From positions 1 through 64,000 of the forward strand of contig CACGNN010000005.1 of the NCBI GenBank assembly GCA_902574355.1: a stretch of DNA of 64,000 nucleotides, read 5' to 3'. Of the stretch, positions 60,938 through 63,711 are shown piece after piece; position 1 is the first letter of the stretch, and the number at the start of each line of letters is the position of its first letter. The notes under the pieces were generated by a model. That model did not search any database and was not told where the DNA came from. It was given only the letters and a program-made list of their open reading frames with translations. Made by a program: the position numbers and the translations under genes. Source of the DNA: an uncultured SAR86 cluster bacterium. Lineage in GTDB: Bacteria; Pseudomonadota; Gammaproteobacteria; Magnimaribacterales; Magnimaribacteraceae.

Positions 60938-62659
<1,722 letters not shown>

Positions 62660-62687
62660 TTAAAGCAGAAGTTATGCCCGGTTAACT

Positions 62688-62750
62688 CTAAAAAAAAGAG
62701 ACCGGGATAGTCAGTCGTAGCTGAATATTTTTTTTAGCGACTAAAATCAT
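62688..62750 (-). promoter_or_regulatory. Candidate leuA leader peptide and attenuator region (MILVAKKNIQLRLTIPVSFF*)
   Basis: 21-codon minus-strand ORF upstream of leuA with 8/20 Ile/Leu/Val; overlaps mutually exclusive hairpins and a T8 tract. Confidence 0.4.
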
Positions 62751-62759
62751 CGGCGCTAG

Positions 62760-62786
62760 CTTATATTTGCAAGCAATTAAGGTCAA
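62760..62786 (-). promoter_or_regulatory. Candidate leuA promoter
   Basis: Minus strand TTGACC (62786-62781), 15-nt spacer, TATAAG (62765-62760). Confidence 0.4.
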
Positions 62787-62823
62787 GTTGAGTCTTTTTT
62801 TTCAAATAGTAAAATTGCAAAAT

Positions 62824-63225
62824 ATGGTTTTATCAAAATATCAAAAACTCCAAGAGCTAGGTATAGATATATGGAAAAAAAGATCTGATCAGGAGACTAT
62901 TTTTTTTCAAGATGAAGTCTATTCAATCGACAGAAATTGTATTCTGTGTCTTGGAAAAAAAGACGAGAAAGTTTCAGAAGAGGATAAAATAATTTTTTTA
63001 AAGACACTTGCTAAGTCAATTGGAAAAAATAATTTCCTGAAAATAAATAAACTAGAAAATCCCGAATTAATAAATAACATCATAGTTTTAGGAACAGATA
63101 TTCCACAATATTCAGAGCAATATGCAAATTCTGAAATATCATCTTATGATTCCATGACAGAAATATGTTCATCAAAAGAGTCTAAACAGCTTTTTTTGGA
63201 TCAGTTAAAAGCTTTAAATTTATAA
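62824..63225 (+). CDS. holD: Probable divergent DNA polymerase III psi subunit (HolD-like)
   Basis: N-terminus YQKLQELGIDIWKKR resembles HolD LQQLGITQWSLRR; central LGTD; directly upstream of rimI as in E. coli holD-rimI. Start re-assigned to ATG 62824. Confidence 0.5.
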   Translation: MVLSKYQKLQELGIDIWKKRSDQETIFFQDEVYSIDRNCILCLGKKDEKVSEEDKIIFLKTLAKSIGKNNFLKINKLENPELINNIIVLGTDIPQYSEQYANSEISSYDSMTEICSSKESKQLFLDQLKALNL

Positions 63226-63234
63226 AAATATTTC

Positions 63235-63711
63235 ATGGACTACTCTTATTTAGATTTTAGCCACTTAGATTCAGTTCTCGAAATAGAGAGAGAATCTAAC
63301 CCTTTCCCTTGGACAGAAAGAAACTTCACTGACTGTTTAGAGAAAGGTTATTACTCTTTGGCTCTAGAGGACAATGAACGGTTGGTAGGTTTCGCTATTA
63401 TGGCAATTTCATCTGAAGAGTCACATCTTCTGAATATAGGTGTAAATAAAGATTTTAGGGGTTCAGGGTACGGAGAGAGAATATTAAAAAAAATGATAAT
63501 TGCTGCTGAAGTTATGGGAAGCAAGAAAATACTTCTTGAAGTAAGAGTCTCAAATAAAATTGCTTATAGACTTTATGAGAAACTTGGATTTCATGAAATT
63601 GGTGAAAGAAAAAAATATTATAGACTCCCTGAAGGCAGAGAAGATGCTTATGTTATGTCCAAAACCCTCAAAAAAGGTTTTGTAAGTAATTTATTTTTTT
63701 CTAAGAGTTAA
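63235..63711 (+). CDS. rimI: Ribosomal protein S18-alanine N-acetyltransferase
   Basis: GNAT: LLNIGVNKDFRGSGYGERILKKMI...EVRVSNKIAYRLYEKLGFHEIGERKKYY. Confidence 0.93.
   Translation: MDYSYLDFSHLDSVLEIERESNPFPWTERNFTDCLEKGYYSLALEDNERLVGFAIMAISSEESHLLNIGVNKDFRGSGYGERILKKMIIAAEVMGSKKILLEVRVSNKIAYRLYEKLGFHEIGERKKYYRLPEGREDAYVMSKTLKKGFVSNLFFSKS

Follow-up and report, generated by a model that had tools for sequence, protein, structure and literature searches.

A conserved leader reading frame and bulged hairpin upstream of leuA in SAR86 bacteria: a candidate leucine-responsive attenuator

The leuA locus

The window analyzed here is a stretch of 64,000 nucleotides from an uncultured SAR86 cluster bacterium (contig CACGNN010000005.1), whose genome of 1.44 Mb belongs to the SAR86 order. 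Its minus strand carries leuA, encoding a type-2 2-isopropylmalate synthase, preceded by the features listed in Table 1. Catalytic, post-catalytic and LeuA_dimer domains were found in the product, which shares 58-60% identity with LeuA of Actinobacteria and of many Proteobacteria. A divergent ORF on the plus strand (62767-63711) represents an unknown family, the main part of which has no Pfam hit, and is followed by a GNAT acetyltransferase (rimI-like); its position suggests a fast-evolving holD as a candidate.

The leuA search covered 35 genomes of the window's family; upstream regions were collected from this set and, in addition, from 80 genomes belonging to two other families of the order. 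The sequences are MAGs of related genomes, and the counts given below do not represent independent events. In genus g9 (G042-G049) the LeuA matches show one in-frame TAG or TAA within the aligned span; a natural stop that has shifted close to the C-terminus may explain it.

Table 1. Features of the leuA leader region in the window (all on the minus strand)
Feature	Position	Strand	Remarks
-35 element TTGACC of the leader promoter	62781..62786	-	Same TTGACC in each of the 31 element-bearing relatives of the family
-10 element TAAGCT, 17-nt spacer	62758..62763	-	TAAGCT, TATGCT, TATCCT or TATACT in relatives
Putative leaderless leader ORF MILVAKKNIQLRLTIPVSFF*	62688..62750	-	Frame open in 30/30; exact 44-nt ATG-hairpin spacing
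5' segment A (ATTTTAGTCG)	62738..62747	-	9-10 bp of complementarity with the leuA start and, in part, with the Leu-codon segment; confined to the window's genus plus two sister genera; suggestive
Candidate sensing codons CTA CGA CTG (Leu11-Arg12-Leu13)	62712..62720	-	Codon conservation; other Proteobacteria share Leu-Arg-Leu
Conserved hairpin CCCGGT-CTCT-loop-AGAG-(3-nt bulge TTA)-ACCGGG	62677..62706	-	Covariation; leader stop codon in loop/stem
Shine-Dalgarno GGAGA of leuA	62627..62631	-	Seen in the sequence
leuA, type-2 2-isopropylmalate synthase, 560 aa, TTG start	60938..62620	-	Domains HMGL-like, IPMS_D2, LeuA_dimer

Promoter and leader reading frame

The initial annotation had proposed that a near-leaderless leader peptide precedes leuA. 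The 20-aa ORF starting at 62750 is present as described, with 8 of 20 residues branched-chain, and the sequence indeed has no Shine-Dalgarno (SD) motif ahead of it. The TATAAG that had been named as the -10 box can also be read in the sequence, but in the alignment the -10 element is TAAGCT (62763-62758), combined with TTGACC at 62786-62781. TAAGCT ends 7 nt ahead of the leader ATG in the window, and the aligned upstream regions of all 31 element-bearing relatives have the same order: TTGACC, a spacer of 16-17 nt, TAnnnT, 6-8 nt, and then ATG. The predicted transcription start lies at, or about 1-2 nt from, the leader AUG in 31/31. Since the promoter ends 6-8 nt before the ATG and no SD is present, the ORF is probably translated as a leaderless message. 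The start codon is ATA in one leader (L105) and ATG in the others, with all else conserved; the ATA may be a sequencing error, a start loss or a non-standard start.

Comparison with related leuA upstream regions, the check that had been suggested, showed the leader ORF to be conserved in close relatives. The frame is open in all 30 distinct leaders, with stops in frames +1 and +2 in 30 and 22 of them; if codons 5-11 are shuffled, an in-frame stop is expected in about 15 of the 30 leaders, against none in the real frame. Codon 13 is Leu in 30/30 (CTG, CTT or CTA, i.e., with synonymous changes) and codon 11 is Leu in 24/30, through five different codons. CGA stands between the two in 29/30, and codons 5-10 vary freely. 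This conservation points to a translated ORF with regulatory Leu codons. SAR86 leaders have no run of consecutive Leu codons; usually two of the three codons are Leu, as Leu-Arg-Leu. One relative (L111) reads LLLLT at the Leu11-13 site and is the only SAR86 leader with LLLL. The distance from the ATG to the first base of the hairpin is exactly 44 nt in 31/31 SAR86 leaders (re-read by eye in three members of genus g2).

The conserved hairpin

The pairing CCCGGT/ACCGGG (62706-62701 with 62682-62677) had been noted earlier as a third hairpin that sequesters a terminator arm. The pairing is present; instead of a side structure, it is the conserved covarying element, and no U-tract follows it. The consensus of the element in SAR86 is CCCGGTCTCT/AGAG-NNN-ACCGGG. 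Bases are paired in 98.9% of cells, with eight both-side changes over four pairs, a level reached in 0 of 500 shuffles, and a further pair closing the loop is changed on both sides in nine sequences. The loop varies in sequence and length, while the 3-nt asymmetric bulge is kept; variable loop length together with an asymmetric bulge suits an RNA element, not a DNA operator. The 3' flank of the hairpin has 3.7 T in 8 bases in SAR86 leaders, compared with 2.7 expected from composition, which does not amount to a canonical U-tract, and strong intrinsic termination at this site is unlikely.

Several other structures were sought around the hairpin. A helix that would enclose the hairpin, pairing the Leu-codon segment with a segment downstream of it, was significant only in L224. 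Full-leader folds gave no consistent change in the accessibility of the leuA SD between the free and the stalled state. The genome has no second copy of the element, the next match (E = 0.4) lying inside other genes, and no similar leaders were seen before its ilvB, hisG or trpE. Upstream of ilvB (G000:C1, L201/L206), a CCTCC-n8-GGAGG hairpin lies shortly before the start and could hide an SD-like sequence; a leader peptide of the leuA type is absent there.

Two mutually exclusive hairpins had been put forward initially as the attenuation mechanism, i.e., classical transcription attenuation with an AGTCG/CGACT antiterminator (62742-62738 with 62717-62713) and a GACTG/CGGTC terminator followed by TCTTTTTTTT. 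Both pairings exist in the window, and U8 follows GACTG/CGGTC. The first pairing is present in the window's genus; in other genera it is broken, and its covariation does not exceed the shuffled level. GACTG/CGGTC also shows no covariation and breaks in relatives without compensation, leaving a mutually exclusive antiterminator helix unsupported. The U8 run behind it forms the loop of the conserved hairpin, a variable stretch where relatives have other bases, and the GACTG/CGGTC stem has to compete with that far stronger hairpin. Moreover, terminator-like sites occur in this genome at chance level (10 found in 19 kb, 10.6 expected in shuffles). We consider classical attenuation by these hairpins very improbable, and both were discarded for their lack of covariation and chance-level frequency.

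Distribution in SAR86 and other Proteobacteria

Of the family genomes, 32 have a leuA upstream region that can be read, and the element was found in 31 of them. In the exception (G034; G034:C10:147687, L113) a TATAAT lies about 11-12 nt before the leuA ATG, and leuA itself may be near-leaderless. The element is absent from the 80 genomes of families f2 and f3 of the order (L115-L194), in many of which the space before leuA is too short for a long 5' leader. Rfam release 15 gave no match at E<=1 in this region of the window, and none at the leaders of nine relatives. The full-length SAR86 model (R1) matched only the window's own genome among 369 gammaproteobacterial genomes. A short DNA-pattern search of 399 genomes gave matches in five, with one true leuA leader besides that of the window.

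A cross-phylum set of cousins was then assembled by reading leuA upstream regions. Leu-rich leaders were found before type-2 leuA in Actinobacteria and in Alpha-, Beta-, and Gammaproteobacteria. The cousins proper, in which a putatively leaderless Met...Leu-Arg-Leu... peptide is followed by a GC hairpin with a stop codon often in its loop, precede type-2 leuA in other Gamma- and Alphaproteobacteria; similar, looser arrangements occur in Betaproteobacteria. Close cousins include Alkalilimnicola (peptide MRNTRFEKLLRLSNPAS, hairpin CTACTACGACTGAGCAACCCGGCCTCC-TAA-GGAGCGTCGGG), an alphaproteobacterial MAG (peptide MTYANRLLGLLRLTGPAL), G273 (peptide MPIRTCALLRLSSPAS*), and L215, L219, L222, L223, L231 and others. 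All cells of their outer stem (100%) are paired, and three of its five pairs show both-side changes (C-G/G-C, C-G/U-A and G-C/A-U exchanges). The ATG-hairpin distance shifts by whole codons (38, 41, and 44 in L069, L025, and L027), as expected for a translated ORF, and the apical loop contains a stop codon in L025, L215, L219, L222, L224, and L231. A canonical U-tract follows few of these hairpins (at least 5 T in 8 bases in 3/15), and the cousins have no Rfam match. A strict scan requiring a promoter, a leaderless ATG, Leu-x-Leu and a GC hairpin recovered 25/31 SAR86 leaders and returned 15 of 104 non-SAR86 type-2 leuA upstream regions, as compared with 0.01 in shuffles; these hits are in Gamma-, Alpha-, and Betaproteobacteria, some being Betaproteobacteria that resemble the SAR86 leader less closely.

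Many gammaproteobacteria have a second Leu leader nearer to leuA, and SAR86 has the first only. This tandem leader, which reads ...LRLRxGRRA* or similar and carries a stop codon in the loop of its large GC hairpin, was seen between the first element and leuA in L025, L224, L223, L228, L231, and L218.

These comparisons bear on two other readings of the locus. One is that a chance ORF lies in a conserved promoter or DNA operator region. In favor of it, the region is short and close to the divergent gene; against it, the frame and its codons are conserved, an asymmetric bulge and a variable loop length are unfit for a DNA dimer site, and the same architecture occurs in other classes, which together make a chance ORF extremely improbable. 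The other is that the hairpin serves as the site of an RNA-binding protein or as a processing or stability element, the ORF being a by-product or encoding a functional small peptide. It would account for the strength of the hairpin and its conserved 3-nt bulge as well as the conserved C-terminal peptide LRLTxPVS, and a protein-binding role has been proposed for the actinobacterial LEU element (PMC1262725). Yet the stop position and the C-terminus vary, the L223 and L228 peptides ending directly after Leu-Arg-Leu or Pro-Arg-Leu, and the C-terminal residues are set by the hairpin sequence; the exact whole-codon spacing between ATG and hairpin points to a ribosome that reads the ORF. We regard this explanation as improbable.

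Proposed mechanism

At the level of sequence, the comparisons establish the ORF with its frame and Leu13, the hairpin at a fixed distance, and where the promoter lies; that the start is leaderless, that the ribosome stalls and in which direction control acts are what we infer. Taken together they suggest, with somewhat better than even confidence, that the leader is a leucine-responsive attenuator of leuA that operates by ribosome stalling. The gene is specific to the leucine pathway, which favors this reading. The idea that the Leu codons are placed for ribosome stalling dates from the initial annotation and has, like that of a near-leaderless peptide before leuA, gained from the retention of start, frame, Leu13 and spacing in the 31 relatives and from the cousins in other Proteobacteria; its second half, that stalling blocks a 5-bp terminator with U8, was lost with that terminator, which is not conserved and occurs at chance level.

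Transcription would begin at, or about 1-2 nt from, the AUG of the short ORF, which a 70S ribosome would translate as a leaderless message. A shortage of leucyl-tRNA would stall this ribosome at Leu11 or Leu13. The leading edge of a bacterial ribosome lies about 15 nt beyond the P site. If Leu13 occupies the A site, codon 12 (nt 34-36) would be in the P site and the ribosome would reach nt 48-49, thereby covering CCCGG (nt 45-49) in the 5' arm of the hairpin; the hairpin could not form, and leuA would be expressed. The strict 44-nt spacing in SAR86 fits such a reach over CCCGG. When leucine is plentiful, the ribosome would run to the stop in or near the hairpin and leave, the hairpin would fold, and leuA expression would fall. 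Low expression with the hairpin folded would be a sensible polarity for leuA.

Candidates for the output step are Rho, pausing, weak termination, and masking of the leuA start by the RNA's own 5' end. We favor premature termination or pausing of a non-canonical kind (Rho-assisted or weak-U), because no U-tract terminator exists. Several points count against an attenuator: SAR86 leaders have neither a Leu run nor a U-tract after the hairpin, L105 has ATA in place of the start codon, the stop codon lies past the hairpin loop in many SAR86 leaders, so that the leucine-replete state would not be uniform, and the results of mutating actinobacterial leuA leaders were at odds with classical attenuation (PMC1262725).

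Masking of this kind is the basis of a translational switch, in which the 5' end of the RNA (segment A, leader codons 2-5) would pair with the leuA start (TTGACTAAAAT) and hide it. A ribosome on the leaderless AUG, above all one queued behind a Leu11-13 stall (9-11 codons away), would keep the 5' end and free leuA. In the window's genus, the complementarity of 9-10 bp is worth -9.5 to -11.6 kcal/mol; the pairing appears in full-leader folds, and the TTG start of leuA is weak. Among 16 representatives tested, drawn from the three genera, 11 offer segment A no better site than the leuA start within about 1 kb of mRNA, and a fraction of only 0.0003-0.011 of shuffled A segments matches the real pairing in five genomes. 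However, the pairing is absent from sister genera g2, g3, and g5, where ORF and hairpin are kept, genus g4 has better-pairing sites elsewhere, synonymous shuffles of the leuA start pair equally well, and the pattern may reflect one evolutionary event. A switch of this kind is unlikely to be the explanation as a whole; the pairing is suggestive of a lineage-limited option for the output step.

Relation to known leaders

E. coli leuL (Rfam Leu_leader), the classical leu attenuator, combines a leucine-pathway gene, a leader peptide with Leu codons and a hairpin just downstream. The SAR86 leader resembles it in these three respects and differs in having no SD, no Leu run, no U-tract terminator and no Rfam match. 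The actinobacterial LEU element comprises terminator-less leuA leaders, the mechanism of which was left unresolved (PMC1262725). It and the leaderless leuL genes of Actinobacteria likewise stand before type-2 leuA and encode a short Leu-containing peptide (PMC1262725; PMC8079986). They have no typical Rho-independent terminator. LeuL1 of S. lividans is transcribed leaderless, and other leader peptides are leaderless as well (PMC8079986). The actinobacterial peptides have a run of 3-5 Leu, which SAR86 lacks. In the LEU element, the Leu codons form a base stem with the SD of leuA, and a pseudoknot was proposed (PMC1262725). In SAR86, by contrast, pairing between the Leu-codon segment and the leuA start is poor in most genera (mostly 0 to -5 kcal/mol, at best -6.3 in g2), full-leader folds show no consistent Leu-codon/SD pairing, and what is conserved is one hairpin with a bulge. 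The SAR86 leader would operate in the manner of the known leaderless and terminator-less leaders, but the absence of a U-tract terminator, a Leu run and a base stem sets it apart from both the classical attenuator and the LEU element.

In the trpL leader of S. meliloti the ATG is the 5' end of the RNA (PMC7298713), and this system shares with the proposed one a ribosome-dependent attenuation of a biosynthetic gene; unlike it, trpL uses Trp codons and a transcription terminator that gives the sRNA rnTrpL (PMC7298713). Leaders of mycobacterial cys operons also encode a peptide without an intrinsic terminator, but contain cysteine runs and no conserved hairpin; for terminator-less mycobacterial leaders Rho-dependent termination has been suggested (PMC1262725). 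No paper linking SAR86 to leader peptides, attenuation or leaderless messages was found in the open-access literature.

A broader, rather speculative reading, to which we give little weight, is that of a widespread, uncatalogued proteobacterial class of leucine attenuators, in which the leader AUG would be the start of the message, the stop would lie in or beside a non-terminator hairpin and control would be by ribosome occupancy, with the SAR86 5' end sequestering the leuA start until a 70S ribosome queued on the AUG behind a Leu11-13 stall frees it.

The findings point to a family of putatively leaderless, U-tract-free leuA leaders that spans several proteobacterial classes and is missing from Rfam. 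They also bear on the actinobacterial leuA puzzle of a Leu leader that works without a terminator. The family takes in culturable gammaproteobacteria such as Alkalilimnicola, where it is testable, and an abundant, uncultured, genome-reduced ocean lineage would gain a concrete amino-acid-sensing RNA.
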